Source of the DNA: a bacterium
GTDB taxonomy: Bacteria; ARS69
Assembly: GCA_025774805.1 (NCBI GenBank)
Contig: JALGZR010000032.1
Location: forward strand, 1-34,807
Direction: 5' to 3'
Length of the DNA: 34,807 nt
A program made the translations under genes and the position numbers. The notes under the pieces were generated by a model. It made no database searches and had not been told where the DNA came from. It saw only the letters and a list, made by a program, of their open reading frames with translations. Each line of letters opens with the position of its first letter. Position 1 is the first letter of the stretch. Positions 10,147-29,054 of this stretch are shown piece by piece.

Positions 10147-10779
10147 TCAGTTCCGATAGAGCGTCTTGATTCCCCCCCACGAGTGAGACTCCACCGAGAC
10201 CGGCTCGGTGCAGGTCTGACCGACGGCGGCCACCACGCCCGTTTCTCCTGCGTAGCCCGACTCGACCGTCTCGTAGAAGTAGTATTTCGGGGCGGTGTCC
10301 AGCCCCGGCGCGATGTAGGAAAACCCCGAAACGGTCTCTCCCGGATTGATCGGGTCTGTCGTGTTGGGCCAGTCCGGACCCCAAGTGTTGGACACCCACT
10401 GGAGCTGGGGATCCAGGTTCCGCGCATCATAGGCGGGATGGACACCGTCCAAGGGGGAGGCACCGGTCATCCAAAGGGGATGCGTGGACCACGATGCGGT
10501 GGGCGTCAGATCCGTGAGAACGGAGTAGACTCCGAAGTGCCAGATGTGGGCCGCGTCCACGTTCTCGAAGCTGTAAGAGTACTCGTAGAAACCGCCACCG
10601 AGATCGGTGATGGTCTCCAGGACGCACAATGGAGACCAGTAACCCCACTGAATGTCGCGCGGGTGGTCGGGCGTCGATCCTATGTCCGTGGTGACCGGAT
10701 TCGCGCCCGCGAGGGCAAACGTGGTCAGAGTCCAGACGGACACCGTCAGCGCGAGCAAACGGAATCGTCGCAAGTTCAT
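10147..10779 (-). CDS. Secreted protein with C-terminal VE-x3-WG-x-IK-x2-YR motif
   Basis: 210 residues from the ATG at 10779, eight or so bases after GGAGGG. Signal peptide MNLRRFRLLALTVSVWTLTTFALA. The mature part has strand-like segments and many aromatic residues ('DIQWGYWSPLCVLETI', 'GGGFYEYSYSFENVDAAHIWHFGVYS', 'KYYFYETVESGYAGETGVV', each quoted in part), which suggests a beta-sandwich. I do not recognise the family. The C-terminus, VESHSWGGIKTLYR-N, is the shared signature found on three other secreted proteins of this window. It is monocistronic, with 742 bases of gene-free DNA upstream. Confidence 0.85.
   Translation of the reverse strand: MNLRRFRLLALTVSVWTLTTFALAGANPVTTDIGSTPDHPRDIQWGYWSPLCVLETITDLGGGFYEYSYSFENVDAAHIWHFGVYSVLTDLTPTASWSTHPLWMTGASPLDGVHPAYDARNLDPQLQWVSNTWGPDWPNTTDPINPGETVSGFSYIAPGLDTAPKYYFYETVESGYAGETGVVAAVGQTCTEPVSVESHSWGGIKTLYRN
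10153..10194 (-). other. C-terminal motif, member 1: VESHSWGGIKTLYR
   Basis: Residues 196-209 of 210, followed by one Asn and the stop. It fits V-E-x3-W-G-x-[IL]-K-x2-Y-R exactly. Confidence 0.85.
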
Positions 10780-11521
10780 GGAGAGCCCTCCAGGGGTTGA
10801 GGGTACGAGAGGCCCGGAGAATCTCCTCCGGGCAGTCGGACGACAGACGAGACCCGCGACCGGGGTCAAGCCGCGCGGGGAAGAGTTCGCTCATGAAGAA
10901 GGCGAGAATCATGCCATGCCATCGACGGAGAGGCTCAGCGGTAGAGTGGCCGCTGTCGGCGGTTGAAACGGGCAGTGTGCGGTCGGCGACCACGGCGGTA
11001 CGATTCCGTTTCATGCGAGAGCAGAGAGTCGGCCAAGGTGGGGAATGCGTCGAATGGAATCGCCGTAAGCCCGACGAATGGGCTACGTTCCGCATTTCCG
11101 CGAGGTTCCGCTTCAGCCCGCGGTACGGCAACCGTACGGCAACGCAGAGTGGCTCGGATCTTCGCACCGGACTGTAATCTCGGGAGTGGTACGATGATCG
11201 AGGGAAGTGAGACAGACAAGGCCCCGCGCCCCACCGGGAGGGACCGGTGGGGACGGGATCGGTGGTGATGGAGGAAGCAGTGGAATGAGTGAGAGAGAAG
11301 CCCCCGCATCCTCCGGATCCCTCTCCGGCACCGACGGGACCACGGGTGTGGCTTGATTGTTCATCCAGGAGCAGTATCCTGCGCAAGCCCGAGCGTTCCT
11401 GGAACCCGGGGCGGCTCGACCCGGAACGAGCTTCCGGATGCGGCCCCGGATCCGCCATCGAGCTCTGCCGGTCGGGGGTTGACCCGGGATCTCGGGCCGG
11501 ACGTCACTCCGAAGAGGCACG
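10780..11521. other. 742-base gap without a confident gene
   Basis: Short open frames exist on both strands, but none has a good ribosome site or consistent GC-rich third positions. Visible structure: a perfect hairpin at 11229-11252 (CCCCACCGG, loop GAGGGA, CCGGTGGGG) and a short direct repeat of CGTACGGCAAC around 11122-11144. TTGACC at 11479-11484 looks like a -35, but no -10 follows. The region separates the divergent genes at 10779 and 11522 and probably holds their promoters. Confidence 0.4.
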
Positions 11522-12025
11522 ATGAAGATCAAGATCATCACGACGGGCGGAACGATCGACAAGGTCTACTTCGACGCACAGAGCAAGTACGAGGTCGGAG
11601 AGTCGCACGTACCCGATATCTTCCGGGAGTCCCACGTGACCGTGGACTACGAGGTGGTCAACGCTCTCCGGAAGGACAGCCTGGAGATGACCGACGAGGA
11701 CCGCGCGCTGATCCGTGCGACGGTCGAGGCCGCTTCGGAAAGGGCGATCGTCGTGACCCACGGAACGGACACGATGGCCGAGACGGGACGCGCGCTCCGC
11801 GGCATCCCGGGCAAGGTGATCGTCTTGACCGGATCGCTTCACCCGGCCCGTTTCAAGAATTCGGACGCGGTCTTCAACGTGGCTGCGGCCGTCATCGCGG
11901 TGCAGACGCTTCCGGAGGGCGTGTACCTCACCATGAACGGACGCATCTATGACCCCGACTGCGTGAGGAAGAACCGGGAGCGGAACGCCTTCGAGGAGAT
12001 TATCGGAGAGTCATCGTTCGAGTAG
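11522..12025 (+). CDS. Short asparaginase-family protein (N-terminal catalytic domain only)
   Basis: 167 residues, ATG at 11522 with GAAGAGG upstream. It begins 'MKIKIITTGGTIDK', the first catalytic-threonine loop of asparaginases (T8-T11), and carries the second signature 'VVTHGTDTM' (79-84) and 'VLTGSLHPARFKNSDA' (100-115). Full-length L-asparaginases have about 330 residues in two domains. This one stops after the N-terminal Rossmann-like domain. Free-standing versions of this length exist in other bacteria, so the shortness is probably natural rather than a truncation; the sequence ends cleanly. Whether it deamidates asparagine or another amide is open, because the second domain contributes to the active site of the dimer in classical enzymes. 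It is not in an obvious operon. Confidence 0.85.
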   Translation: MKIKIITTGGTIDKVYFDAQSKYEVGESHVPDIFRESHVTVDYEVVNALRKDSLEMTDEDRALIRATVEAASERAIVVTHGTDTMAETGRALRGIPGKVIVLTGSLHPARFKNSDAVFNVAAAVIAVQTLPEGVYLTMNGRIYDPDCVRKNRERNAFEEIIGESSFE

Positions 12026-12800
12026 ACCGTCCGTCAGGCAGATCTCCCCGCGGGACCCGTCCGTCGGTTCGCGTGCTAACGGTCGGATGAAGATCCCGTC
12101 GACCTACGAGGTGGGAACGCATCACGCGGACCTCGACTTCGGCGAACGGACCCTTTTTTCGAAGCGCGTCGCGACCTTCTCGCTGGGCCGGAGTCGATCT
12201 CTCGGCCGAGGACGTCCCTGCGGGTGCGACTGGACTTCCGGCACCATGTCTTGGACAGTGATTCCGAGCCGGACCGGGCCGACGACGGTCGGGTGCTCGC
12301 CTTCCGGTCGCGTTCCCAGGGCGCGCGCGGCATTACTCGAAAAAGCCGCGATCGCTACGGAAGAGGACGGGCGGCCGGGAGCCTGCCGGGGTGCCCGTCG
12401 GTCACCTGACCGACGTAACAGATTGTTTTTCAACGATTTCCCGCCTGGCAGTCATCTCGCTCAGCGCGAGAGACCATGCGGCCGGCCTACTCCTCCTGCC
12501 CGAAAGAGCCACGCTTCGGGCCGATCTTTCTCGGATCGCGTAGGGCGGTCGGTCGATAAAGGGGTATCGTTCGAGTGCCCTCACAGGGCAGGATAGAGAA
12601 CGGAGCTCAGCCGAGGTCCCCTTCGGCGAGATTCCGGAAAGCCGGCGGGCTCGGCACCGCCGGAGCGGCGCCCCCAATAGTTGGAAGGCGTCACCGGGCG
12701 GGAGGGTTTCCCGCGAACACGAGTAGTCGGGCGGTACGGATGTTGCAGTTCAATCGCAGGGCCGGACTCCGACGATTCGAAAACCGGTAGGTGTACGGCA
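12026..12800. other. 775-base gap upstream of the cold-shock gene
   Basis: No frame here has convincing coding character. It contains a perfect 20-base palindrome at 12396-12415 with a T5 run ten to fifteen bases beyond, and a small stem-loop near 12457-12471. Part of it may be the long structured leader common on cold-shock mRNAs. Fragments of a degraded gene are possible around 12087-12412, but no family could be named. Confidence 0.4.
12396..12415. promoter_or_regulatory. Perfect palindrome CGTCGGTCACCTGACCGACG
   Basis: Nine-base arms around CC, 386 bases before the cold-shock start. The tiny loop argues for an operator or cruciform more than an RNA hairpin, though a T5 run follows at 12426-12430, so a terminator reading is also possible. 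Confidence 0.35.
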
Positions 12801-13016
12801 ATGCGTACGACGGGAACCGTGAAGTGGTTCAACGATCAGAAGGGCTTCGGCTTCATTTCTCGGGAAGACGGAGAGAAGGACGTGTTTTGTCACCACTCGG
12901 CGATCCAGGATTCGAGTGGGGGCTTCCGCACGCTGGCGGAAGGTGACAGAGTGGAGTTCGATGTCGTGGAGGGTGCGAAAGGCCCGGCGGCCGAGAACGT
13001 GGTGAAGGTCGGCTAG
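12801..13016 (+). CDS. Cold-shock protein (CspA family)
   Basis: 71 residues, ATG at 12801; the ribosome site is weak (GGTAGGTG). A single OB-fold cold-shock domain covers the whole protein: '[15 protein letters not shown]' with RNP1 KGFGFI at 14-19, and RNP2-like DVFCHHSAI at 27-35, then '[23 protein letters not shown]' (quoted in part). RNP2 is usually DVFVHFSAI; here Cys and His replace Val and Phe. Such proteins bind single-stranded RNA and DNA and act as RNA chaperones in the cytoplasm. The long gene-free upstream region may include a regulatory leader. A GC-rich hairpin terminator follows at 13047. Confidence 0.96.
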
Positions 13017-13046
13017 CGGAAGTGACTGAATTCCATGGAGTACGGG

Positions 13047-13077
13047 GCCCCGCCGGCGGGAGCTGGCGGGGCTTCTC
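13047..13077 (+). terminator. Likely intrinsic terminator after the cold-shock gene
   Basis: Stem GCCCCGCC (13047-13054), ten-base loop, GGCGGGGC (13065-13072), then TTCTC. It begins 30 bases after the stop codon. The short pyrimidine tail makes it imperfect. Confidence 0.5.
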
Positions 13078-13099
13078 AATCGCAACGAAGGAGGCAGGA

Positions 13100-13279
13100 T
13101 TGGGGAGGCGAACAAACTACGGCTTCGAGAAGCGACAGAAAGAGATGAAGCGCCAGAAGAGGAAGGAAAGGAAGCTCGAGGAGCGGAGGGCGAGGAGGCA
13201 GGCGAGGAATGAGGCCGGTGATGAGGACGGAGAGGGAGCGGAGGGGGTGACCCAGGAGGGTGAAGAGGGGCGCGACTAG
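13100..13279 (+). CDS. Small highly basic protein, TTG start
   Basis: 59 residues. TTG at 13100 is chosen because AAGGAGG lies at 13088-13094, five bases before it; an in-frame GTG at 13022 has no ribosome site and would read through the terminator hairpin. Sequence: 'GRRTNYGFEKRQKEMKRQKRKERKLEERRARRQ', then an acidic tail 'DEDGEGAEG...EEGRD' (quoted in parts). It should form a long charged helix. Short proteins starting T-N-Y-x-F-E-K-R-Q-[KR]-E are common in diverse Gram-negative bacteria; their function is unknown, perhaps nucleic-acid or ribosome binding. Its TAG stop touches the left end of the repeat element at 13278. Confidence 0.7.
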   Translation: MGRRTNYGFEKRQKEMKRQKRKERKLEERRARRQARNEAGDEDGEGAEGVTQEGEEGRD

Positions 13280-13363
13280 CCTGCAATTCTCACCAGGCTC
13301 GTCACGAGGCTGCGGCAGCGGCTCTGCCGCTGCCGCAGCAGAGACTGATGAGATATGCAGGCT
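13278..13363. mobile_element. MITE-like inverted-repeat element, copy 2 (short)
   Basis: 86 bases. Left arm AGCCTGCAATTCTCACCAG, right arm (inverted) AGCCTGCATATCTCATCAG, and next to them an inner perfect pairing of CTGCGGCAGCGGC with GCCGCTGCCGCAG. The whole unit could fold into one long hairpin. It shares both ends with copy 1 (9298-9471) but lacks that copy's interior. It lies between the stop of the small basic gene and that of the response regulator at 13409. Confidence 0.75.
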
Positions 13364-13408
13364 GGAGTACGAAGCGGCACCACACGAATCGCCCGTGGAG
13401 GACGACCG

Positions 13409-13900
13409 TCACTTCTCGCCGTCGTCCAGTTCCCGAAGAGCCCGAAGGATCCCGAGCGGACTCTGCCCCGTTCCGATCTGCTCGATCTGCTTCATCCGTT
13501 CTTCGTCCGCCCGGAACTTCTTGCGCATCCGTGTTTCGTACGCCTCCCGAAGGGACTCGAGAAGCTTGTCGATCTCGTAAGGCTTCGGGAAGTAGCCGTA
13601 GGCGCCGAGCTTCGTCGCCTCCACGGCGCTCTCCAGGGCGCCGTGGCCGGTCAGGATGATCACCTCGAGGAACCTGTGCTCCTGCTTGAGGATCTTGAGG
13701 AGCTGCATCCCGTCCATGCCCGGCATCTTGAGGTCCACGAGCGCCAGATCGAACTTGCAGGTACGGGCCAGTTCCAATGCATCCTCCCCACTGGAGGCCT
13801 TGCGCACGTCCAGGCCACGCATTACCAGGCGCTCTGCGATCGCATCGAGGAACCGAACCTCGTCATCGACGATCAGCAGCCTGATCTTCCTCTCTTCCAT
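13409..13900 (-). CDS. Response regulator, single receiver domain
   Basis: 163 residues from the ATG at 13900 (GAGGGA upstream; the longer frame to 13957 has no ribosome site). Receiver fold: 'IRLLIVDDEVRFLDAIAERL' with the acidic pair, phospho-acceptor Asp in 'LALVDLKMPGMDG', Thr in 'VIILTGHG', Lys in 'YFPKPYE'. After about residue 125 there is a charged helix and no DNA-binding domain, so it works through protein contacts or as a phosphate relay. It is the last gene of the minus-strand cluster that starts at 16539 and the only one besides the first regulator's receiver part that is undamaged. Confidence 0.92.
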   Translation of the reverse strand: MEERKIRLLIVDDEVRFLDAIAERLVMRGLDVRKASSGEDALELARTCKFDLALVDLKMPGMDGMQLLKILKQEHRFLEVIILTGHGALESAVEATKLGAYGYFPKPYEIDKLLESLREAYETRMRKKFRADEERMKQIEQIGTGQSPLGILRALRELDDGEK

Positions 13901-13934
13901 ATCCCTCACTCCCTCGCGGCCGGGCCCCCTCGCC

Positions 13935-14784
13935 TCACGAGATGTTCGGGAACCCAATCCAATCCCAGTATCCCCGGAACGCCCACATCCAGAGTACTAG
14001 CAATGAGAGCGCCACGGCCACCATTCCGTGCCTCAAGGAATCACCCAGCTTCACGAGCTGCTCGCCCGTCTGAGGGTCCTTTGCCATGTAATAGGCAATG
14101 GCATCGTTGGGTGTTCCGATGGTCAGCATGTGCGCGAAGGAGGACGCGAATGCTGTCGCGGAACCCACCGTTCAGGGATGGACGCCCGCGAGCTTCGCCA
14201 TGGGGACGGTGATCGGCCCGATGGCGGCGACGGTGGCGCCGTCGCTCATGAAATTGGTGGTCAGTCCGGTGAACAGGCTTGCGGCCATTGCCAGGCCCAT
14301 CCCCTCCAGCATCGAGGCCGGAAGGAGGGAGACGAATCCGTCCGCGAGATAGAGAGCCCCTCCCGTCACGGCGAGCCCCTTTCCAATGGCGCCGGCGGCC
14401 GCGTACAGGAAGACCACCTCCCATGGGATTCTCACGATGTCCCTCCAGGGCATCACGCGAAGGAGGTTGAGTGCGACGAGGCCAAGGATCACGGGGCCTC
14501 CCATTCCCAGGGACGTACCTGCGGTACTCCACAGTACGATCACGGCGACCAGAACGATCGCCGTGATGTACTCGTTCCTCGTCATCGGGCCGATCCGTCG
14601 GGAGGCGACGCGGACGATGCGGGCAACATCGAGGTCCTTCATCCCGCCTCGGAGACGGCATGAGCAACAGGGTCGCCATCAACACGGCCCCGATCAGAAT
14701 GAAGAGAGGTCGGGAGTTGTGGCTTCCCACGAGCCATGTGGCCAACGAAGGGGACTTCCGGACCGGGATCTCGAATCGCGCCAT
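13935..14784 (-). pseudogene. Broken DASS/SLC13-family anion transporter
   Basis: Three pieces of one Na+/anion symporter are seen. First, 'ARFEIPVRKSPSLATWLVGSHNSRPLFILIGAVLMATLLLMPSP' (quoted in part; from 14784 to about 14650), the family's N-terminus and first helix. Second, in another frame from 14642, the C-terminal half, with 'TTNFMSDGATVAAIGPITVPMA' and four or so helices. Third, after an in-frame TGA at 14172-14174, 'VGSATAFASSFAHMLTIGTPNDAIAYYMA', the second family signature, ending at 13935. The N-terminal half between the first helix and 'DLDVARIVRVASRRIGPMTR' is missing, so an internal deletion left an out-of-frame junction near 14650. The TGA falls where Trp would fit (HP-W-TVG). 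Intact members have 450 or more residues; here about 285 remain. Confidence 0.8.
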
Positions 14785-15156
14785 CGCGTGGACCGGTTGA
14801 GCACGGGCCCAGTCCACGCCTTCCAGCAGGCGATCCAGGTCCACCGGTTTCTCCATGTAACGGAACACGTCGAGCCGGCCCGCCTCGGCAGCCGATTCGA
14901 GGCTGCCGTAAGCCGTCAGCATGATCACCTGGATCTCCGGACGGAATTCCTTGACGATCTTGAGCGTCTCCTCTCCGCTCAGTCCCGGCATCATGCGATC
15001 CAGAAGAATCACGTCGATGTCGAGATTGGCCCCGACCATCTTCACCGCGTGATCGCCGTTGGACGCCTCAACCGTTTCGTGCCCGCGGAGCTTGAGACGC
15101 GCGGCCAGGGAGGTCCGGAGCTCGTGCTCGTCGTCGACGAGGAGGATCTTCGGCAT
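14041..15156 (-). CDS. Response regulator whose frame runs into the broken transporter
   Basis: ATG at 15156 with AGGAGA upstream, eight bases after the CBS stop. Residues 1-120 are a normal receiver domain: 'KILLVDDEHELRTSLAARL', phospho-acceptor Asp53 in 'VILLDRMMPG', Thr in 'IMLTAYG', Lys in 'RYMEKPVD'. No stop separates it from the transporter's N-terminus (Met125 onward, 'ARFEIPV...'), so either the two were a natural receiver-transporter fusion or the regulator's stop has been lost. After about residue 169 the frame leaves the transporter reading frame and continues as about 200 meaningless Arg/His/Pro-rich residues to 14041. Only the receiver part (about 14797-15156) should be treated as functional. 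Confidence 0.7.
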   Translation of the reverse strand: MPKILLVDDEHELRTSLAARLKLRGHETVEASNGDHAVKMVGANLDIDVILLDRMMPGLSGEETLKIVKEFRPEIQVIMLTAYGSLESAAEAGRLDVFRYMEKPVDLDRLLEGVDWARAQPVHAMARFEIPVRKSPSLATWLVGSHNSRPLFILIGAVLMATLLLMPSPRRDEGPRCCPHRPRRLPTDRPDDEERVHHGDRSGRRDRTVEYRRYVPGNGRPRDPWPRRTQPPSRDALEGHRENPMGGGLPVRGRRRHWKGARRDGRGSLSRGRIRLPPSGLDAGGDGPGNGRKPVHRTDHQFHERRRHRRRHRADHRPHGEARGRPSLNGGFRDSIRVLLRAHADHRNTQRCHCLLHGKGPSDGRAAREAG

Positions 15157-15164
15157 CGGATCTC

Positions 15165-15728
15165 CTAGGCGGCGGAGTCGTCGTCGCCTTCGAGAATGCA
15201 GTCGGAGAGGTGTTCGAAGACGTCGCTCAGCCGGAGCACCCCGACGACGACGTCGTCATACCGGACCAGCAGGGAGGGCGTCTGATGTTCCACCAGGAGC
15301 CGTACGGCGGCGAGGAGCGGTACGTTGTGGTCGATCGAGATCGCCTCACGAGATGTCAGATCGCCAACTCGGATCGAGCGGGCTCTCTCGCAGATGTCGG
15401 AAAGGTGCTCGTGCAAGAGGGCGAGATTATCCATGGTTTGACGCACGAGCTCTTCGCTCACCCACGCGCGCTTGAGCATCGGAATCTGAAATTCGTCCTC
15501 GTGCCACGGCAGGAGAGCGTCGAGGATCAAGAAGTGGTCGAGTCTTCCGACGAAGTTGCCTCCGGCGTCTCGCACCAGGATCGCGCGGTAGGGCGGTCGG
15601 CCCGGCGGCAACTATTGCTGAGCATCGTGCAGGGCCCGGAGGGCCTGCCCGAGGGTATCGCTCTCACCGACGCCGGCATGCTCCGACAGCGGGATCATCA
15701 AACCGACTACGGTCATAAAGGACGCCAT
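15165..15728 (-). pseudogene. CBS-domain protein with an in-frame TAG
   Basis: ATG at 15728 behind AGAGGAG, overlapping the end of the histidine kinase gene. The frame encodes two CBS domains: 'VVGLMIPLSEHAGVGESDTLGQALRALHDA' continues into 'RAILVRDAGGNFVGRLDHFLILDAL' and, after a helical linker, 'VGDLTSREAISIDHNVPLLAAVRLLVEHQ' and 'SLLVRYDDVVVGVLRLSDVFEHL' (all quoted in parts). A TAG at 15612-15614 interrupts the first domain between its two halves, in frame, after 'HDAQQ'. Full length would be 187 residues. Reinitiation at the TTG right after the stop would give a protein lacking the first half of CBS1. CBS pairs usually bind adenylates and gate transporters or kinases, which fits the neighbours. 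Confidence 0.8.
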
Positions 15729-15736
15729 CGTCTCCT

Positions 15737-16539
15737 CTACTTGACTTGTGCCCATTCGGCGCGGCTCTCCTCGCCACTGAACTCTTCGGTCGGAAGGTCG
15801 GAGCGAAAGCGGCTCCCACGACCCGGCTCGCTGCCCACGAAGAACTCGCCCCCGAGGTTCTTGATGATGCCGAGACTCACGGAAAGACCCCGTCCGGTGC
15901 CCTTGCTCGATGGTTTGGTCGTAAAGAAGGGTGTGAAGAGGCGCTCGAGTTGATCCGGGGTCATCCCGCACCCCGTATCCCGAACAGAGACCGAAACGCG
16001 TCCGTCCCGGAGGTGGGTCTCGAGCGTAAGTGTTCCACCACGCTCCATGGCGTCCACCGCGTTCCGAATGAGATTGACGAGAACCTGCACGATCTGGGCC
16101 CGGTCGGTCTCCACGCGAGGGAGGTCCGCGCCGTAACGCTTCACGACGTCGATGTGAGCCAGGGGAAGCTTGCGACCCAGAAGGCCGTCCGCGGCCTCGT
16201 CGACGATCTCGTTGATCGAGTGAGGTAGGATCTTGACCTCGCTCTGGCGCACGAAGCTCGAGAGCTTCTGCGTGATATCTCGACAGCGGTAGACGGCGGA
16301 GTGGATGGTATTCAGACGGAGCTTCAACTCCTGAGTCGTGAGCTCTCTCCCGAACTGCGGATCTTGCAGGTCTTTCATCATGCCGACCTCCTCGGCGATG
16401 ATGGAGAGAGGATTGTCGATTTCGTGGGCGATGCCCCGGCGAGTTCTCCCACGGAAGCGAGCTTTGCCGCGTGCACGAGCTGACCCATCGAGCGCCAGGC
16501 CGACGAAGCGCCCGCCGCGTGGGCCGGATCGACTTTCAC
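15737..16539 (-). pseudogene. Histidine kinase with a one-base deletion in its H box
   Basis: Start inferred at GTG 16539; the frame gives 'MGQLVHAAKLASVGELAG' and then is lost. Restoring one G in the C4 run at 16434-16437 (plus strand) regenerates the textbook phospho-acceptor motif GELAGGIAHEIDNPLSII. The remaining frame from 16381 to 15737 is intact: dimerisation helices, N box 'QVLVNLIRNAVDAM', G1 box 'VRDTGCGM', F box 'FTPFFTTKP', G2 box 'GTGRGLSVSLGII'. There is no sensor domain in the about 267 codons, so it would be a soluble kinase taking input from a partner such as the CBS protein. A homopolymer sequencing error could mimic this lesion, but the adjacent genes carry independent lesions. 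Confidence 0.8.
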
Positions 16540-16723
16540 TCTCCTCGGTTCTCCTCTACATTCGCACCGAGATCCTTGCCCAGGTCGCGCTCATGGTTCC
16601 GCGGCGCCTCGGTCCGGGCGACCTCGACTTGTCGGTCCGGCGGTGGGAGTCATTCCCGCCTCTTCGGTCAAGGCGCACCGAACCGGACCGGAACCGGGGG
16701 CGACGAGCGAACGGAGGACCCCA

Positions 16724-16906
16724 GTGAGCCGGAATACACTTCTCGTGTGGTTGGTTTCTCTCGCGGTCGTGGACGTCGTGATCCCGATCCCGATCCTCGC
16801 GATCACCCTGGTGGTCGTCGTCCTGAGGCGTCCGGCGTGGTTTCTGGATCTCGTCCGGGCCGTGTACGGGCCGGACGCGGTGCCCGCCGGTGAAGACGCC
16901 GCTTGA
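16724..16906 (+). CDS. Small single-pass membrane protein
   Basis: 60 residues, GTG at 16724 with GGAGGA nine bases or so upstream. Sequence 'SRNTLLVWLVSLAVVDVVIPIPILAITLVVVVLRRPAWFLDLVRAVYG' (quoted in part): one or two hydrophobic stretches broken by Pro-Ile-Pro, then an amphipathic 'RRPAWFLDLVRAVYG' tail on the cytoplasmic side. I do not recognise the family. It is divergent from the kinase pseudogene. A Pro-rich frame beginning at 16923 could be a second small gene but has no ribosome site. Confidence 0.6.
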   Translation: MSRNTLLVWLVSLAVVDVVIPIPILAITLVVVVLRRPAWFLDLVRAVYGPDAVPAGEDAA

Positions 16907-17360
16907 GCCGGGCGGATCCGAAATGCCACCCACCGATGACCCGAGGCCGAGCTCCCGTCCGAGAATCCAAGTCGTCGACGGAGGACGAGCCCCCGGTCAA
17001 GAGTCCGGCCGACTCCGGCAGCTCAAAGCGGCACCGACCGGGGCCGGAGGGCACTCCGGCTCCGGGGCAAGTCACCTAACTTCCTTCAGGAAAAGAGGTT
17101 AGCCAGAGTCGGGAGGAGGGAACCGGCCCTCCGCGGCGTCGGACCCCAGCATCCCCGCCGCCGGGGCCGACAGGAGGGTCCGCCAGGGTTTGGCTATAGT
17201 TCATGGGTGGGGTCATGGAGGGGGACCGGTCTCCTCGATCCCGCTCGATTGAGCTTGATTCTCGGAAAGGATTCGGCATCTTCTGCGAACCCGGCTTCGC
17301 GGACACCCTGTGCCCGCCCCCCGAAGACTCTCGGAACACTCTCAGAATCGGAGGTACACC
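16907..17360. other. 454-base gap upstream of a secreted-protein gene
   Basis: It holds a possible -10 TATAGT at 17195-17200 without a clear -35, about 160 bases before the ATG at 17361. A frame at 16923-17102 (59 residues, Pro/Arg/Gly-rich) lacks a ribosome site and strong codon bias. Nothing else is supported. Confidence 0.35.
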
Positions 17361-17921
17361 ATGAGGCGGTTCATGACCCTGGTTTCAGTTCTCGCGGTCT
17401 GCGCCCTCGCCACGGGCGCGTTCGCCACGACAGACCACGAGTTCGGCTGGACGATCAGCAGCAGCACGACCAGTCCGGATGTGAACTACTCGCCGACCCC
17501 CATGGGTGGCCCGGGCACCTTGTATCTGTGGCTGAAGTGTTCCTCGGAAGTGACCGGAGCGGCCGCCTCCGAGTGGGGGTTCGTCCTGACCGGGATGCTC
17601 TGGGGCGGCATCGCCGGGGTCTCTCCCTATCTCTTCACCGGGTCGGAGTCGGACATGCTGGGCGCCTATGGCAACGTGAATCCTGAGACAATGGTCGGCA
17701 TCATCACGGTCTTCGATTTCAGCGGCGGAAACATTTGCCTCGGCAACTCCGCGGCCAACGACCGCAACATCACGGTCGGCGTGGACGGCAAGGGGTATGT
17801 CAACGACTGGCGAGGCTTCGCCAGCGTGGATGGCGCGCCCTGCGAGACATCCACCGAACTCTGCTCCACGGAGGCCGTCGAGGCGGAGACCTGGGGCAAC
17901 ATCAAGAGCCTGTACCGGTAG
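17361..17921 (+). CDS. Secreted protein with C-terminal VE-x3-WG-x-IK-x2-YR motif
   Basis: 186 residues, ATG at 17361 behind GGAGGT (17350-17355). Signal peptide MRRFMTLVSVLAVCALATGAFA. The mature part is Gly/Ser/Thr-rich with strand-like stretches ('TLYLWLKCSSEVTGAAASEWGFVL', 'ETMVGIITVFDFSGGNICLGN', quoted in part) and four Cys residues (60, 127, 161, 168) that could pair outside the cytoplasm. Family not recognised. It ends exactly with VEAETWGNIKSLYR. The gene is monocistronic, with a tautomerase gene convergent to it. Confidence 0.87.
   Translation: MRRFMTLVSVLAVCALATGAFATTDHEFGWTISSSTTSPDVNYSPTPMGGPGTLYLWLKCSSEVTGAAASEWGFVLTGMLWGGIAGVSPYLFTGSESDMLGAYGNVNPETMVGIITVFDFSGGNICLGNSAANDRNITVGVDGKGYVNDWRGFASVDGAPCETSTELCSTEAVEAETWGNIKSLYR
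17877..17918 (+). other. C-terminal motif, member 2: VEAETWGNIKSLYR
   Basis: Residues 173-186, directly before the stop. Codons differ from the other three members. Confidence 0.85.
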
Positions 17922-18055
17922 CACCGCAGATTGTGATCGCCGAATGATCGTCCTCCGAAGAGCAAGAGGGTTTCGCCTTTGAGTCGAGGACCGCCTTCCG
18001 GAGGAGCCGCCGGGGCAGCTCGCCCCGGGCTGCTGCTTGCTCACGAATCGCCCGC

Positions 18056-18298
18056 TCACGATCGGCGAAACGGCAGGAGTCGGATCTCCACTTCCGGCTC
18101 AGGGCTTCGGTTTCGGGCGGATCGGCCTGCCTCCGATAGCCCCGTCATCGGCTTTGATCTCTCGATCACGACCCAGGTTAAGTCACGCGATCCCTCACCC
18201 TCGACCTCGATCATCGCTTCCGTGATCTTCTCGATGAGGCGGGTCTTCCGTTCTTCGGTGAACACTCCCTCAACGACTTTTGCCGTGGTGAATGGCAT
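18056..18298 (-). CDS. 4-oxalocrotonate tautomerase-family protein
   Basis: 80 residues from the ATG at 18298 behind GGAGGGAGAG; the frame extends upstream without a better start. After Met removal it begins with Pro (PFTTAKVVEGVFTEERK...), the catalytic N-terminal proline of the tautomerase superfamily. 'TRLIEKITEAMIEVEGEG' and 'LTWVVIERSKP' give the beta-alpha-beta core, residues 1-55. The C-terminal 25 residues are Arg/Pro-rich and longer than in typical 62-residue members. Cytosolic and probably oligomeric. The natural substrate cannot be read from sequence or context. Confidence 0.88.
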   Translation of the reverse strand: MPFTTAKVVEGVFTEERKTRLIEKITEAMIEVEGEGSRDLTWVVIERSKPMTGLSEAGRSARNRSPEPEVEIRLLPFRRS

Positions 18299-18578
18299 GG
18301 CGCTCTCCCTCCATTCCGTCGGTGACCTCCGCCGGCGACCGACAGACGGACCCATCCCGTATCCGCGGGCCGACGGCTCTCTCGAGCTCGCCCCAACGGA
18401 GCGAGAATCGACGAAAGCCCCCATTGCAGATTAGTCACCCCGGTACTTGTCATATGCATTCGAGTCGTCTTCACCGATAGGTCGCTGCATTGTCATCCTC
18501 CATCGTCCATGGCACAATCGGACGCGCGGATCTCCGAACAGACTCCCCGAACAATCCCTGAACCCGAGCGAGGTGATC

Positions 18579-19085: not shown

Positions 19086-19194
19086 TCCGAAGGGGCCCGG
19101 GGTCCGCTCCGGCGGGAACGGTGCCGTTCGATCGGCGGGGCGACCCCGGGCGGTCTCCACAAAGTCCTGAGAGTCCCACGCCGCAAGGGCTTCC

Positions 19195-19995: not shown

Positions 19996-20337
19996 AGTCA
20001 GTGCTCCGTGACGTGCCGGCCTCGTGTACGCCGGCCGCCTCCTCCTCGGGGGACCCCGGGGAGCGTACCGCAAACCGTGATCCGCTCCCATCGCATGATG
20101 GCGGCGAAGGGGGCCGGCCCTCGGGCGAGCGCGGGTCACGGGCGCGATGAAGGCCGCCTGTGGCCCGGGGTCATTCTCGAGCCACGCCCGCTGGATGTGA
20201 TCGATGAGTGCCGGGGTCCGCAATCTTCCTTGACCCCCGGCCCCGACCCTGGTCACGATCAGGAGGGGAGCCAACTGCCTCGGGACTCTCCCCTGTCGCT
20301 CCCTCCGACCCTCGGATTCCGAACGGAGGTTGTGAGA
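19996..20337. other. 342-base divergent promoter region
   Basis: It separates the esterase (minus) from the small membrane protein (plus). No frame with coding character and no clear promoter hexamers were found. Confidence 0.35.
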
Positions 20338-20634: not shown

Positions 20635-20664
20635 GGCGATCGATCCTTTTTCTCCGGCGGATTG

Positions 20665-23079: not shown

Positions 23080-23153
23080 GTGGGACGGAGCCCCACTCCC
23101 TCTCGAGGGGGCCGAGGCCGACACCGGAAGGCACGACTCCGCAGGATGAGCGG

Positions 23154-24626
23154 CTATGCGTCGTCGCTCGCTCGGGAGAGTCCGAGGCCCCGGAGCACGA
23201 GGGCGAAGACACCCGTGCCGACCCAGCCTCCGACAACGGAGAGAACGAACGCGGTCAGGGGGTTCAACAGATAGTCGCCCAGGAGGACTCCCGCCAATCC
23301 GAGCACGCAGGCCCAGTAGAGGACGAATCCCGTCACGAGCCCCGCCAGGCAACGGAGACGGACCCCTCTCTGCTTCCACCAGCCCTTTCTGGGGCGTTTG
23401 GGAATCGCCGCAAGGACGCCACCCAGAACTCCACCGATCGCGGCCAGAACCATCAGCAGCGCCGGCCACGTGACCTTCACCTCGGTCACCACGGGATCGA
23501 ACCCCCGGGTCGAAGCCCTGATCACGAACACTCCCGGCCAGCGGGGGGTCAAGGTCGTCTGAGCGGTCATGTCGCCCGCGGCAATGGTCACCTCGAGATC
23601 CGAGAGCGTGCCCCTTCCCTCACGGATCTCGAACAGGACCGTACGGTTCTCTGTGTCCACCGCCGGCCTGTCATGTTGTGTCCAGAGCTGCGCGATGATT
23701 TTCGTCGACATGGTCAGGGGAATCGAGGGCCCACTCGCCGTGATCCCCAGACGTGTCGGAGGCGGCGGAATGAACGAGATCATCAAGCTGTCCGCGCCCC
23801 GCAGCTCGACCTCCGGATTGGAAGACACGTTACGGACGGTCACCGTCTTTGCCACGTTGAACGTCAGGGTTCCCAGACCTGAGTCATTCCCTCTCTCGAT
23901 CACGATGGGGTTCGGTCTCAGATTGCCGGTTCCATCGTCGAATCGAAGGGCGATGTCGGTATCCGGTCCGGAGCCCTCCAAATAGAAAGCCAGGACCTCT
24001 GCGGTGTCTTTCCCGTCCGCCCAGAAGTCCCGGTCAGGGGAATAGGTGATCAGGACCGGGTGCACTTTCTCCGGTGATGGTTTGGAACTCTCGGACGACG
24101 CCTCTCCCCCCGGTTCCGATTGTCGGGCGGTCTCTTCCCGCGGGGGCCCGGGACCTTCCGACAGTTCCCGTTCGGGCGCCCCCGCCATCACCATCTCTTC
24201 GACCCTCGGCTTCTTGATGAGCAGCCGCACGCCTCCCTCCAAGAGAGAACCGTGTTTGGCCCCGACATAGACGAGCCCGGGGGGGGCGATGACGCCCTCG
24301 AGCACGTGCTCCATACTCGATTCACCGCTCTCGAACCGGATGTTGCCGACGACTCGGGCCCGGCTCGAAGAACCGCGGGCCACGATCACCACCTCGATGT
24401 CTTCCTGTGTCGCGACTCGCGAGTTTTCCCGATCCACCAGGGTCAAAACCAGTTTGATCGGTGAACCGAAGTCGTAGCTTCGCTGATCCGTGCTCAGCAC
24501 GATCTTCACGGGTTTACCAGGGAGAGATTGCGCGTGGACAATCGCAGTGGAGGTGACGAGACCCAGAACCAGGAGCACGAGGAGGCACTGCGGAACCCGA
24601 CTCTTACGCAAACCTGAACATGACAC
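23154..24626 (-). CDS. Exported Ig-like-domain protein with C-terminal membrane helices
   Basis: 490 residues, GTG at 24626 behind GGAGGGG. Signal peptide 'RVPQCLLVLLVLGLVTSTAIVHA'. The mature part has Ig/Big-type repeats: 'KPVKIVLSTDQRSYDFGSPIKLVLTLVDREN' near 37-68, then, after a Glu/Pro/Ser-rich linker at about 155-187, 'HPVLITYSPDRDFWADGKDTAEVLAFYL', and 'TRLGITASGPSIPLTMSTKIIAQL...' up to 390 (all quoted in parts). Three or four hydrophobic helices follow (about 395-480) with a basic loop between the first two. So most of the protein is outside with a membrane anchor at the C-terminus. It is convergent with the kinase-TPR gene. Function unknown. Confidence 0.8.
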   Translation of the reverse strand: MSCSGLRKSRVPQCLLVLLVLGLVTSTAIVHAQSLPGKPVKIVLSTDQRSYDFGSPIKLVLTLVDRENSRVATQEDIEVVIVARGSSSRARVVGNIRFESGESSMEHVLEGVIAPPGLVYVGAKHGSLLEGGVRLLIKKPRVEEMVMAGAPERELSEGPGPPREETARQSEPGGEASSESSKPSPEKVHPVLITYSPDRDFWADGKDTAEVLAFYLEGSGPDTDIALRFDDGTGNLRPNPIVIERGNDSGLGTLTFNVAKTVTVRNVSSNPEVELRGADSLMISFIPPPPTRLGITASGPSIPLTMSTKIIAQLWTQHDRPAVDTENRTVLFEIREGRGTLSDLEVTIAAGDMTAQTTLTPRWPGVFVIRASTRGFDPVVTEVKVTWPALLMVLAAIGGVLGGVLAAIPKRPRKGWWKQRGVRLRCLAGLVTGFVLYWACVLGLAGVLLGDYLLNPLTAFVLSVVGGWVGTGVFALVLRGLGLSRASDDA

Positions 24627-24856
24627 GATTCCCCTCCGCCGCCATCACGTGTATCTGCGTTGGATACGACATCATCATCGTGGGGTCCGGTCGACTTTCA
24701 TCGTGACGGTTCTCCCCATGAACGTCAAGAACAGACGGAGCACCGATCCATGAGGCGCCGAGGGAATCCGTTCTCCCGGAGAACTCACATGGAATCGGCT
24801 GTACCTGCACCCGGGATGGGACGGCACGCGGTCCTTCCACGAATGAAACCGGCACT

Positions 24857-25786
24857 TCAAAGGCTACGGGGTCTCACGATCCCGATCTCGAAGGTGAGCT
24901 TGTAGAATCCCGCCTCCCGGAACAGGTCGTTGTCGAAACCCTCGGACGTGACCCCTTCGTATGCTTTGACGCCGCCCAGAGCGGTGGTGCTGAGACGGAA
25001 CCACCGCCACTGGACGAAAGAGACGCCGAGGCCGCCGTGAATGGCGAACACCTCGACGACATCGTCGTCGACCTCCTCTCCCGCCTCCACCTCGACGGGA
25101 TTGGCGAAGTCGTACAGCAAGACGCCGTAGTGCAAACCGGCCGTCACGTAGAGTCCGATGAACGTGTGGTGCGGGGTGAAGTAGTATCGACCGGTGCCGC
25201 CGATGGTCAGCTCGGTCAGGTTCTCGAGCGAGTCGTCGAGACCACGATCCGGATCGAGGTCGAAAGTGGCGACCTGGGCAAGCAACCCGCCGCGCAGCCG
25301 GCGGGATTTCGTATACGCTCCGATGTGCAATCCCATCGCTCCGATCTCGTCGAAGATCCCTCCGGCCTGAGATCCGAGACCGAATTCGAGAGATCCGTAG
25401 AAGCGCTCGGACTCGGGTGAGGCGTCGCCGGTCGCCGGAACCCGTACGTCGTCACTTTCGACCGATTCCCCGCCTTCCTCGGCGGTCGCGGCGTGCCCCG
25501 TGAGCACTGGTTCGATAACGATGATCTCGTCCTCCTCCTCTTCGTACGTCGGAGGGGGTTCGTGTTTAACGGTCTTCTCCTTCTTCTTGGTCCGGACCTG
25601 CTCTTCGGGCGGGCTCTTCGCGCGCTCGGCCGCATCGCTGAGCTTCCCGCGGGACGGCGCTCGAGGACTGGTCGTCCCGCAGCCGGCGAGGACGAGTGCG
25701 AGCATCGGAAATAGAACGAAGGTGCTTCGGGTGCGAGACAAGAGGTCGAAGGCAGAAAAGCGTGGTCCGGACGAATTGAGGTCCAA
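24857..25786 (-). CDS. Predicted lipoprotein with outer-membrane-type barrel
   Basis: The lipobox LVLAGC is preceded by 'SRTRSTFVLFPMLA'. TTG at 25786 is preferred (GGGGAG about ten bases upstream; 309 residues); TTG at 25741 would give a more standard signal but lacks a ribosome site. After the Cys comes a Lys/Glu/Pro-rich linker ('EEQVRTKKKEKTVKHEPPP', 'YEEEEDEIIVIE'), then 'RFYGSLEFGLGSQAGG', 'GLHIGAYTKSRRLRGGLLAQVATFDLD', 'GGTGRYYFTPHHTFIGLYVTAGLHYG', 'FRLSTTALGGVKAYEG', 'FYKLTFEIGIV' (parts), strands typical of an eight-strand OmpA/OmpW-like barrel. It lies downstream of a truncated kinase gene on the same strand. Confidence 0.7.
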   Translation of the reverse strand: MDLNSSGPRFSAFDLLSRTRSTFVLFPMLALVLAGCGTTSPRAPSRGKLSDAAERAKSPPEEQVRTKKKEKTVKHEPPPTYEEEEDEIIVIEPVLTGHAATAEEGGESVESDDVRVPATGDASPESERFYGSLEFGLGSQAGGIFDEIGAMGLHIGAYTKSRRLRGGLLAQVATFDLDPDRGLDDSLENLTELTIGGTGRYYFTPHHTFIGLYVTAGLHYGVLLYDFANPVEVEAGEEVDDDVVEVFAIHGGLGVSFVQWRWFRLSTTALGGVKAYEGVTSEGFDNDLFREAGFYKLTFEIGIVRPRSL

Positions 25787-25998
25787 GATGGTGTCTCCCC
25801 GGTTCGAGGGAATAACCGCGAAGAGACCTTGACACATCCGAGAGAGAAGGGCTCGGCAATCGGGTGCGACCCCAGGGTACTCCCGGGAGAGGGAGACTTC
25901 AAGCAACCGCTTCCCGACGGGACGCGGGATCTTCGATCAGGAACGAGTAGCAAACGGGGGTATTCACCGAGACTCGGCGTCGGAGGCGGCCAGTTCCT

Positions 25999-26409
25999 TT
26001 CCATCGCGAAGAAGTGCTGGCCTGCTTCCGTACGGCCGGACTCGTAGACGGCTCCGATGTTCGGATGTTTCCGTCTCGCGAGGGTCTCCACCCCGCGCTG
26101 GAACATCTTGATCCGCAGGTCGTCCACGAACGGACCGCCACGGATCACTTTGAGCGCGACGCGTCTCTGCGGATTTCGCTGCTCGGCTTCGTAGACGATA
26201 CCCATCCCGCCTTCCCCGAGCTTGCCGACAATACGGTACGCCGAAGGGGAATCGAGAGGGTCTGGGGAGTCGAGCCGTAGGCCCGGACCCGTGGGCGTGG
26301 TGTCCTCGCCGCCTGTGGTCGACGGGCGTGTCGAGTCCTTCAGGGGGACCGTGGCGTCCCCCGGATCTTCGGGCGAAGGGGAGGGTGGCCCGGAGGCCAC
26401 CCTCGACAC
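25999..26409 (-). pseudogene. Truncated Ser/Thr kinase gene (N-lobe only)
   Basis: GTG at 26409 with GGGAG upstream. After a Pro/Thr-rich leader of about 55 residues comes the kinase N-lobe: 'YRIVGKLGEGGMGIVYEAEQ', Lys87 in VALKVIRGG, 'KMFQRGVETLARRKHPNIGAVYESGRTEAGQHFFAME' (parts). Homology stops dead at 'FFAME' (about 25999), just before the hinge. No HRD or DFG motif follows in any frame. The open frame itself continues as unrelated residues to 25216, overlapping the lipoprotein gene in another frame. The family usually has 700 or more residues with C-terminal TPR or propeller repeats, so at least 80% is lost. It is not a copy of the kinase at 20665; the N-lobes differ. Confidence 0.8.
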
Positions 26410-26424
26410 GAACTCCCGTCCAAG

Positions 26425-27477
26425 CTAGCGGTAGGTCGCCTTGATGCGGCCCCACGGGCTCGACTCGACGGAAATTACGGGTTGAATCGTCACTATCGTC
26501 TCGCAACAGGTCGTCAGGGGTGGGTCGTCGTCGTCCGTGACGCAGAGCTCGACCGTGAACTCGCCCGCGACGGTGTAGATATGAGTCGGCATGACTCCCG
26601 AGCCGGTGTGGGTGTCACCGAAGTCCCACGCATAGCCCGTGATCGTGCCGTCGAGATCGTAGGAGCCGCTCCCGTCGAACACGATGGGTTCTCCGACGTC
26701 CCCCGCGTAAGGGCCGCCCGCATCGCAGATCGGCGGCTGCCCCGGCACACCCTTGACGTCGTGGCAGAGGTTGTCGAATCCGATGCCGGCGGGATCGAGG
26801 TTGTGAATGGAGATTCCGGCGATGTCGCGGATGCCGCCTGCACGGGCGAACCCGTACGTTTGGCTCGCCAGTCCGGGCAGCACGATCATATCGATAAGTG
26901 AGCCGTCGCGTCGGAAGAAGTTCACGAACGCGTCGCCTCCGTCTCCTCCGAGCAGATCGAAGCCGAACTCCGATTGATCGTAGTCGAACAGAACGGCGAT
27001 CGCTCCCTCTCCGATCGCATCGAAGTTGGGGAATCCCCGGAAGCCCAAACCGGAAAGGACTTGACTGTCCACCGGCTCATAGTACACCACGTCGAGGTTA
27101 TCGTTCGGATCGCCCACCTGAGGAGAGAGGGGATCCGTCGGCTCCCCCGACAGCACGTCGGAGTCGCCCGCGAAGTCGAGTACCTGGCCAACGAAACGTT
27201 CGGCAAAATAGGCCCCATCGGATTCGAAGACGTCGTCGTAGTTGGTGCCCGGAGGATCACCACCCGCGACGTCTTCGAACGTGATCATGCCCGAACAATC
27301 GAGCGTGCTCGGATCCACGGGGACGACTTCAGCCCCCAGAGAGTAGGGCTGTCCCGGATCGACCGGCTCCGTCGGCTCGGGACGGAGCGGGTCCCCGGCC
27401 GCCGAGACGTCGGCGGGTCCGCCTGCGGCCAAGAGCAGGACTGAAAGCCCGAACCACATCGCTGGCACGAATCGCAT
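26425..27477 (-). CDS. Secreted PKD-domain protein with C-terminal VE-x3-WG-x-IK-x2-YR motif
   Basis: 350 residues from the ATG at 27477 (AGGGAG upstream). Signal peptide 'RFVPAMWFGLSVLLLAAGG...VSA'. Residues 60-240 look like a beta-sandwich of the choice-of-anchor/PEP-CTERM type: 'MITFEDVAGGDPPGTNYDD', 'IAVLFDYDQSEFGFDLLGG', 'AGISIHNLDPAGIGFDNLCHD'. A PKD domain follows at about 249-332 ('CDAGGPYAGDVGEPIVFDGSGS', 'YAWDFGD', 'HIYTVAGEFTVELCVTDDD', parts). The C-terminus is exactly VESSPWGRIKATYR. PKD domains usually mediate surface or carbohydrate binding. The truncated kinase starts just 15 bases beyond its stop, on the same strand. Confidence 0.88.
   Translation of the reverse strand: MRFVPAMWFGLSVLLLAAGGPADVSAAGDPLRPEPTEPVDPGQPYSLGAEVVPVDPSTLDCSGMITFEDVAGGDPPGTNYDDVFESDGAYFAERFVGQVLDFAGDSDVLSGEPTDPLSPQVGDPNDNLDVVYYEPVDSQVLSGLGFRGFPNFDAIGEGAIAVLFDYDQSEFGFDLLGGDGGDAFVNFFRRDGSLIDMIVLPGLASQTYGFARAGGIRDIAGISIHNLDPAGIGFDNLCHDVKGVPGQPPICDAGGPYAGDVGEPIVFDGSGSYDLDGTITGYAWDFGDTHTGSGVMPTHIYTVAGEFTVELCVTDDDDPPLTTCCETIVTIQPVISVESSPWGRIKATYR
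26428..26469 (-). other. C-terminal motif, member 3: VESSPWGRIKATYR
   Basis: Residues 337-350, directly before the TAG. It follows a PKD domain, unlike the other members. Confidence 0.85.
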
Positions 27478-28100
27478 CTCGCGTCTCCCTTCGCTTGGAG
27501 GATCGAACCCGGTCGCGCGGCCCACGGTCCAGCGGGTCCGGTCGGAGCATTATCGCCGCTGGAGAAGGGGTGAGACAATGGCCCGGGAGCGGAGCGCGGT
27601 CCGCGGACTTTCAGGGCAGTCTGACATAGATCACATTGACGACTGACATTCGTCAGCAACTCACGACTCGATGGCACCGTTGCGGAGCCGGAGTCCCGCT
27701 AACCGCATGTCGGGTGATTCGATAGCCTTGCCCGCGTGCATGGCTTCGAGATCCACCGCGCGGACGGTGGCGACCCGGCCACCGCCCTGGACCCGCCTGC
27801 CGCCGACCTCGGTGGCTCGCGTGCTCTGCGTCCGGGGGACCCCGAACCGCTCACGGCGCCCTCGGGAGTCGGTGGGCTCGGAGGAACCGGGTCCGGTGAG
27901 CGGCCGTCGCCGGGACCACGCCGCGAGATCGGGGAATCGGCTCCCCCGCCAGGCCTCGGTCGCCAGCGATCACCGTGACCCACCCGAGGAAGCGCTCTGG
28001 AGTGACCCGGCCACCGCCCGGAGTGTGCGGATCTTGAACTGCCGCGCCCGTATCGCGTACGGTTCCTGACCCCCCCTCGACGTCGGATGGAGGCGTGATC
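27478..28100. other. 623-base divergent intergenic region
   Basis: An AT-richer patch at 27615-27660 holds the inverted repeat CTGAC-ATTC-GTCAG (27643-27656) and repeated TGTCAG/CTGACA words; it may be the promoter or operator zone of the PKD gene. No frame in 27660-28090 has convincing codon bias or a ribosome site. Confidence 0.35.
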
Positions 28101-29054
28101 GTGACCGACCGGTTCTCTCGAGCAGTTGCCGTGCTCCCCTTCGTTCTCCCGGCGTCGAGTGCCCTGGCCGCGGACGGCTCCATTGTCGCCTGGGGATCGG
28201 ACACCTACGGCGTGGTCTCGAACGCGCCTGACGGAGACGGCTATCGGGCAATCGCGGCCGGTGACTTCTTCAGTCTCGCGCTCACCGAAGGCGGGTCCAT
28301 CGTTGCCTGGGGGGATGACACTCGCGGGCAGGTCTCGAGCACGCCCACCGGCACGGGCCACCTCGCCATTGCCGCGGGGGGATCACACGGTCTCGCTCTT
28401 GGCGCGGACGGCTCGATCGCCGGATGGGGGGCCGACGGCCACGGCCAGGTTTCGGGTGCACCCACGGCCTCCGGCCACCAGGCCATCGCGGGAGGGGGGT
28501 TCTTCGGTCTCGCCCTCGCCGCCGACGGCTCCGTCTCCGCCTGGGGTCGGGACAACTACAACCAGGTCACGAACGCGCCGGGGGGCAACGGCTACGAGTC
28601 GATCGCCGCGGGGGTGGGTCACGGACTGGCCCTCACCGCGGATGGATCCATCGTCGCCTGGGGGTGGGACAGTGACGGCCAGGTGTCCGCCGCGCCCGCC
28701 GGAACCGGTTTCCGGTCCATCGCGGCAGGGCATTCACACAGCCTCGCTCTCGCCGCGGACGGTTCCATCGTCGCATGGGGGTACGACCACCACGGTCAGG
28801 TCTCGGACACGCCCGCCGGAACCGGGTATCGAGCCATCGCGGCGGGAGGGCACAGCAGTCTCGCCCTCGCGGCCGACGGATCCGTCGTGGTTTGGGGGTG
28901 GGACGACAACGGGCAGATCTCGGATGCGCCTCCCGGGACCGGTCATGAGGCCATCGCGGCGGGAGTGGGTCACGGACTCGCCGTCCACTCCCGTCCCAGC
29001 CTCGTCGAACGCTCCTCCTGGGGTTCCCTCAAGGAGCGGTACCGCGACTGGTAG
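28101..29054 (+). CDS. Secreted RCC1-like seven-bladed propeller with C-terminal VE-x3-WG motif
   Basis: 317 residues. GTG at 28101 is preferred to GTG 28095 because GGAGG at 28089-28093 is then seven bases away. Signal peptide 'DRFSRAVAVLPFVLPASSALA'. Seven tandem 39-residue units follow (28173-28991), consensus DGSIVAWGxDxxGQVSxAPxG (then TGxxAIAAGxxHxLALAA), matching RCC1/BLIP-II-type blades; seven units fill a complete propeller. The C-terminus is VERSSWGSLKERYR plus Asp-Trp. In eukaryotic RCC1 the propeller is a protein-interaction platform; secreted bacterial versions are mostly uncharacterised. High identity between units suggests recent duplication or gene conversion. Confidence 0.9.
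   Translation: MTDRFSRAVAVLPFVLPASSALAADGSIVAWGSDTYGVVSNAPDGDGYRAIAAGDFFSLALTEGGSIVAWGDDTRGQVSSTPTGTGHLAIAAGGSHGLALGADGSIAGWGADGHGQVSGAPTASGHQAIAGGGFFGLALAADGSVSAWGRDNYNQVTNAPGGNGYESIAAGVGHGLALTADGSIVAWGWDSDGQVSAAPAGTGFRSIAAGHSHSLALAADGSIVAWGYDHHGQVSDTPAGTGYRAIAAGGHSSLALAADGSVVVWGWDDNGQISDAPPGTGHEAIAAGVGHGLAVHSRPSLVERSSWGSLKERYRDW
28173..28991 (+). repeat. Seven tandem 117-base repeats encoding RCC1 blades
   Basis: Period 117 bases (39 codons), each beginning near GA(C/T)GG-TCC-AT(C/T)-GTC-GC-TGGGG. The units differ mainly at the x-D-x-x-G loop (SDTYG, DDTRG, ADGHG, RDNYN, WDSDG, YDHHG, WDDNG). Confidence 0.85.
29004..29045 (+). other. C-terminal motif, member 4: VERSSWGSLKERYR
   Basis: Residues 302-315 of 317, followed by Asp-Trp and the stop. 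It has Leu in place of Ile and a two-residue tail. Confidence 0.8.

Follow-up and report, generated by a model that had tools for sequence, protein, structure and literature searches.

A short linear C-terminal tag on unrelated exported proteins of uncultured bacteria, with a possible link to type IX secretion

The window analyzed here is a stretch of 34,807 nucleotides (contig JALGZR010000032.1 of assembly GCA_025774805.1, GTDB lineage ARS69). It contains four genes whose products end in closely similar 14-residue peptides, referred to below as the WG tag. An earlier note, made from the letters of this DNA, had described the four tails and proposed that they constitute a new surface-sorting, anchoring, or processing signal, perhaps with a dedicated enzyme. 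Reading of the open reading frames (ORFs) confirmed the coordinates of the tails and their distances from the stop codon (0–2 residues in all four cases), and a Sec-type signal peptide was found at the start of each of the four ORFs, as the note had held. The note was also right that the carriers share no fold. It had left two of them as unassigned beta-rich proteins; their folds are indeed unrelated, but one of the two (carrier 2) resembles cohesins. Carrier 2 has at least five tagged paralogues in its own genome as well as homologues in other genomes, and the PKD-domain carrier 3 has a homologue in locus L110 that is 48% identical and has its own tag.

Table. Tags, carriers, and contrast cases in the window (T9SS, type IX secretion system; CTD, C-terminal domain)
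Feature	Coordinates	Strand	Basis
Tag VESHSWGGIKTLYR, then N and stop	10153-10194	minus	sequence and genome profile match
Tag VEAETWGNIKSLYR, directly before stop	17877-17918	plus	sequence, profile match, homologue alignment
Tag VESSPWGRIKATYR, directly before stop	26428-26469	minus	sequence and profile match
Tag VERSSWGSLKERYR, then DW and stop	29004-29045	plus	sequence and profile match
Carrier 1, ~210 amino acids, signal peptide MNLRRFRLLALTVSVWTLTTFALAGA	10147-10779	minus	sequence; signal-peptide rule
Carrier 2, ~186 amino acids, signal peptide MRRFMTLVSVLAVCALATGAFA, predicted cohesin-like beta-sandwich with disordered tail	17361-17921	plus	homologues, model, Foldseek
Carrier 3, PKD-domain protein, ~350 amino acids, signal peptide	26425-27477	minus	sequence, homologue comparison
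Carrier 4, RCC1-repeat propeller, 319 amino acids, signal peptide	28095-29054	plus	sequence, family models
Contrast case: secreted protein with T9SS-like (FlgD/Por_Secre-type) CTD	111-1724	minus	C-terminal sequence
Contrast case: C25 (gingipain-type) peptidase-like protein with T9SS-like CTD; 5' end outside the window	33202-34806	minus	sequence features only

The tag recurs throughout the genome to which the window belongs. A degenerate DNA pattern encoding WGx[hydrophobic]Kxx[YF]R had 49 matches in this 5.1 Mb genome, and the reversed pattern, which served as a control, had 0. Among 30 matches that were fetched, 29 lie 0–10 residues before a stop codon; the exception (L029), in an ORF of 51 codons, appears to be a chance match. 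A profile of 17 positions, built from 48 tails of the same genome, gave 70 matches at E <= 10, about 65 of which are credible tails. The weaker of these matches, on inspection, are also C-terminal and include the variants WA and WS (W[GSA]), IR (K/R), and YH (terminal YR/YH). A loose core of the motif was located in 900 complete genes of this genome (358,632 residues) 48 times at the C-terminus and 0 times internally; about half of the stretches that supplied these genes were picked for holding tags, which inflates tag density but leaves the C-terminal-to-internal ratio unaffected. Neither scarcity in the genome nor occurrence inside proteins, both of which the earlier note had set against its own proposal, was therefore found.

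Across all loci, 192 distinct tails yield the consensus [PAS]-V-E-x-x-[ST]-W-G-x-[IV]-K-[ASG]-[LM]-[YF]-R. The residue preceding the tryptophan (−1) is almost always S or T, position −4 is usually E and position −5 usually V, and the two residues preceding Y/F are a small one (A, S, or G) followed by L or M. The V and E that had been taken as fixed are usual at these positions rather than invariant, and the S/T at −1 is an addition to the motif as first described. The search pattern preset five positions (W, G, K, Y/F, and R) in many of the 192 tails, and V and E too in the named loci. No such constraint applied to the S/T preceding W or to the pair of small residue and L/M, which therefore provide independent support for the motif. 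The tail is polar or amphipathic. Strict matches end exactly at R in 175 of 197 instances and have 1–10 further residues in the rest, with two exceptions that are not C-terminal.

Conservation of the tag resides in the peptide. In 58 tails from the window's genome, third codon bases carry little information (0.13 bits for G and 0.27 bits for R) compared with the first two bases (~1.6–1.9 bits), and the sequence past the stop codon carries 0.12 bits per base. Variable third bases together with no conservation past the stop mean that it is the peptide and not the DNA that is conserved, which bears out the protein-level conservation claimed at the outset. The same two observations, along with the result of the reversed-pattern control, refute the notion that the peptide is encoded by accident within a DNA or RNA element (terminator, recombination site, or repeat) or arose by chance, and we assign this notion practically no weight.

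Tagged proteins are strongly enriched in export signals. A single crude rule identified a signal peptide in 39 of the 50 tagged and 219 of the 850 untagged complete genes (odds ratio 10, p ~1e-13), an enrichment that the earlier note had put forward as a test of its proposal. Several of the 11 tagged proteins missed by the rule clearly have a signal peptide (e.g., MRIAVASAGALFLLGFAGAASA), and hence the true fraction lies above 39/50. Tagged proteins have a median length of 237 amino acids, as compared with 701 for the products of genes with a T9SS-like CTD. Searches of 83 carriers against Pfam and NCBIfam brought up beta-helix, NosD, PMP repeats, RCC1, PKD, cohesin, CHRD, plastocyanin, propellers, and M36/InhA-like parts, with no model covering the tail. 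The carriers have unrelated beta-rich extracellular folds. No Pfam or NCBIfam model matched when 48 tails were scanned alone, a profile search of the PDB with the tail returned insignificant matches only, and literature searches on the motif and on Eisenbacteria secretion signals found no description of the tag.

The mature form of carrier 2 (17427-17918) was modeled with AlphaFold2 using seven homologues. The model is a beta-sandwich with a mean pLDDT of 79 (mostly 74–94 in the body), and its best matches in Foldseek are cohesins. The tail (residues 141–164) has a pLDDT of ~42–52 and is predicted to be free and disordered. Homologues of this carrier retain the tail, while the linker preceding it varies in length and sequence. 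An AlphaFold2 model of the PKD carrier, from a two-sequence alignment, was uninformative (pLDDT 30).

Tag genes tend to cluster, adjoining other tag genes in 8 instances as compared with 2.9 expected when labels were shuffled within loci (p 0.002). Tandem arrays of three to six paralogous tagged genes occur at L295 13705-19000, L299 97-3403, L298 8256-12462, and L203, which suggests that tagged surface proteins have expanded by duplication.

The tag is present in all five genomes examined from the phylum of the window's genome, all of one family, with 20–51 pattern matches each. A scan of contigs with a stop-anchored pattern, for which the matches listed are a lower bound, placed the tag in at least 115 stretches from at least 43 assemblies; assembly labels among these matches are Eisenbacteria, Krumholzibacteriota, UBP1, Coatesbacteria, Effluviviaceae, Latescibacterota, and unnamed bacteria. 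Tag-bearing genomes have from 1 to 81 tags, and the single tags of tag-poor genomes are mostly on signal-peptide proteins. Tags occur in 40 of 47 genomes of the Eisenbacteria phylum, within which one tag-poor group (G041, G046, G081-G088) has 0 or 1 tag. Three matches in IMG/VR appear to be due to chance or to bacterial sequence.

Candidate enzymes were compared over a contrast set of 31 genomes (19 tag-rich and 12 tag-poor). Sortase (PF04203) was found in 0 of the 5 genomes of the phylum and in 2 of the 31 overall, and the classical sortase was rejected as the tag enzyme on account of its absence from the phylum. Exosortase (PF09721) is present in 15 of the 19 tag-rich and 5 of the 12 tag-poor genomes, the window's genome included, a bias that would be expected if the tag were an exosortase substrate. 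However, four tag-rich genomes are without the enzyme, one of them 92% complete with 26 pattern matches; exosortase genes sit in exopolysaccharide loci, several having PEP-CTERM cargo of their own adjacent; and the tag has no PEP motif, membrane helix, or basic cluster. We consider it highly improbable that exosortase acts on the tag. We take the exosortase loci that were read for ordinary PEP-CTERM systems. PEP-CTERM proteins lie beside exosortase or exopolysaccharide genes at L276 4466-5197, L277 10247-11050, L278 1158-1985, and L280 9404-10183. In some of these genomes three or more C-terminal codes are in use side by side: PEP-CTERM, the T9SS CTD, and the WG tag.

Clustering of neighbors over ~160 tag loci identified no conserved non-tag partner. 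The signal part of the proposal in the earlier note has good support, given the exclusively C-terminal placement, the unrelated folds, the signal-peptide enrichment, the occurrence in several candidate phyla, and the lack of a family model, whereas the dedicated enzyme it allowed for did not emerge from these comparisons (no classical sortase in the phylum, patchy exosortase, no shared neighbor). Separately, by sequence resemblance, the plus strand of the window encodes a BlaI-like regulator (5616-6113) and, next to it, a BlaR1/M56-like membrane protease that is extended at its C-terminus (6118-7566).

Known components of the T9SS accompany the tag. A match to the SprA family (the T9SS translocon, sprA) was found in all 35 tag-bearing genomes tested, 31 of these being over the curated cut-off and the rest fragments or weak, and T9SS CTDs number from 35 to at least 120 per genome. 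PorV (6–15 copies) and PorU occur in every genome of the contrast set, tag-rich and tag-poor alike, and PorV copy number does not separate the two groups; these known T9SS parts thus do not account for the difference in tags. None of the five genomes of the phylum has the PorP/SprF shuttle (PF11751, type B), which gave weak matches in 4 of the 31 and was rejected as a candidate. At L212 (G000:C125) 1807-5565, a single array brings together a PorV-family gene, genes for T9SS-CTD proteins, and a tag gene of the YH-ending variant.

The absence of a T9SS component that separates tag-rich from tag-poor genomes is also what would be expected of a dedicated sorting or anchoring system apart from the T9SS, in which another receptor or transpeptidase reads the tail and the T9SS is merely common in the same lineages. 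The number of tags, which ranges from 0 to ~80 among T9SS-bearing genomes, likewise resembles the behavior of PEP-CTERM/EpsH pairs (PMC1569441). Against such a system, no candidate enzyme for it emerged, the tag loci have no conserved non-tag neighbor, the classical sortase has the sparse distribution described above, and the tail offers no hydrophobic helix to an intramembrane enzyme. We regard a dedicated system as rather unlikely, though the strongest of the rival explanations.

By regular expression, 0 of the 50 tagged proteins have a T9SS-like CTD as well, and TIGR04183 had no match among the 83 carriers. When bodies were compared without their tails and CTDs, 23 of 185 tagged bodies matched a CTD protein, all in two families. 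In the first, a 971-amino acid CTD protein in L103 adjoins a tagged homologue and matches tagged proteins of 185–256 amino acids in L103 and L146 at 39–45%. In the second, a 1229-amino acid CTD beta-helix protein from the window's genome matches tagged beta-helix proteins. In these sequences, tag and CTD exclude each other, and related bodies end in one or the other. A tag gene adjoins a CTD gene in 11 instances, as compared with 6.5 expected when labels were shuffled within loci (p 0.037).

The search for PorU revealed a second PorU-like C25 protease, called PorU2 here, which splits from PorU in a tree (support 1.0) and has the conserved His and Cys intact. PorU2 is distinct from the PorU that adjoins PorV and occurs across phyla; the window's genome has two copies, in G000:C187 (L309 7097-11212) and G000:C63 (L310 5427-10262). 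Tag genes flank PorU2 in L293-L296, L298, L299, L301, and L304, the last being the site of the only tag in that genome. Four genomes prompted the idea of an association, and nine others formed the test set: a tag lies within 6 kb of PorU2 in 4 of these 9, as compared with 0.93 expected (p ~0.006, a value that ignores relatedness). Another five regions and an additional control either had no tags near PorU2 or were stretches too short to tell. PorU2 is our only enzyme lead, and because it is present also where tags are absent, we treat it as a candidate at the level of a lead.

Secreted proteins of ~200 amino acids that end in a dockerin-like motif lie beside PorU2 at L309 11421-12047, L311 11397-12104, L293 11167-11757, and L298 10854-11423; most have an Ig-like middle, and one has a weak match to Dockerin_1. 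Given these and the cohesin-like tagged family of carrier 2, a surface cohesin-dockerin system is possible. The tail itself might be an extracellular docking motif that engages a scaffold, an S-layer, or a surface polymer once the protein is secreted, is never processed, and holds proteins together. The free and flexible tail of the model, the cohesin-like carrier family, and the Ig and dockerin-like proteins near PorU2, suggestive of the building of a surface complex, would suit such a motif, as would the minority of tails extending up to ~10 residues past YR, by which a free carboxylate is not essential. Docking motifs, however, can usually sit internally or repeat, and strict C-terminal placement with a mostly terminal R fits a sorting signal better. 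Docking is in our estimation quite unlikely.

We conclude that the tail is very probably a short linear C-terminal sorting or targeting signal. Our preferred explanation of its operation, to which we assign a probability of roughly 0.5, is as follows. Carriers would be exported by means of their Sec signal peptides and then fold in the periplasm, leaving the 14–17 residue tail free. An outer-membrane export or attachment protein, for which a PorV-type shuttle and PorU2 are candidates, would recognize the tail, and the carrier would be released to or attached at the cell surface. On small carriers, the tag would stand in, in minimal form, for the usual beta-sandwich CTD. In this explanation, recognition by T9SS parts, crossing of the outer membrane, and any cleavage are steps that we infer. 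Coupling of the tag to the T9SS surface pathway in particular is proposed tentatively, at somewhat less than an even chance. A specialized type IX branch in several uncultured phyla that reads a linear, helix-free peptide, for example through PorU2 acting as a transpeptidase that attaches tagged proteins to the surface, would be a new kind of sorting system and would give the exoproteome two parallel C-terminal codes; this more specific version is unlikely.

Several observations weigh against the preferred explanation. SprA, PorV, PorU, and PorU2 are found also in relatives that have a single tag or none, so that these parts are not sufficient and their co-occurrence with the tag is confounded by phylogeny. 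Positions of PorV and tags, compared by eye, include only about two close pairs, which is about chance level. PorU2 has no tag neighbors in the window's own genome (L309 and L310), and the same holds in tag-poor genomes other than that of L304. Swapping of tag and CTD is limited to two families, of which one is a repetitive beta-helix. Lastly, the T9SS signals reported in the literature are folded domains, 40–235 residues in length, and not 14-residue peptides: ~100 amino acids for type A, 150–235 for type B, and 40–51 for the shortest (PMC12618676, PMC11969387).

The tag in effect marks the exported or surface proteome of several large uncultured lineages, with dozens of proteins per genome, most of them unannotated. 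Its one-line signature allows annotators to find these proteins, and the tag also points to a further recognition step. Should the link to the T9SS hold, that system would be capable of recognizing a peptide of 14 residues in place of a folded domain.

The tag acts like known C-terminal sorting tags and belongs to none of those compared, for lack of either the defining helix (PEP-CTERM, GlyGly-CTERM, MYXO-CTERM, and LPXTG) or the defining domain (T9SS type A). To our knowledge, helix-free linear C-terminal sorting peptides this short are not among known Gram-negative signals. Like the type A CTD of the T9SS (TIGR04183, Por_Secre_tail; SprA/PorV/PorU), the tag is a C-terminal signal on many unrelated Sec-exported surface or extracellular proteins of diderm FCB-type bacteria, the same kinds of body can bear either signal, and the machinery is in the same genomes. 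Unlike this CTD, which is a beta domain of 40–100 residues, the tag has 14–17 residues, is disordered in the model, and matches neither TIGR04183 nor any other model. With LPXTG and sortase the tag has in common a C-terminal anchoring logic, but it has no LPXTG motif and no helix, and the phylum has no sortase gene. GlyGly-CTERM (rhombosortase) and MYXO-CTERM (myxosortase) are likewise C-terminal sorting tags of Gram-negative bacteria; these have a tripartite build, and an intramembrane protease cuts their hydrophobic helix, whereas the tag is helix-free (the comparison covers features of the tails, the enzymes not having been searched for). PEP-CTERM and exosortase (EpsH) differ from the tag in the PEP motif, transmembrane helix, and basic cluster, and exosortase is neither universal among tag-bearing genomes nor linked to the tag. 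The likeness is nonetheless considerable: a short C-terminal homology found dozens of times per genome, on carriers that share only a signal peptide and the tail, and distributed patchily by clade. PEP-CTERM (PMC1569441) also offers the nearest model for the discovery of such a code.

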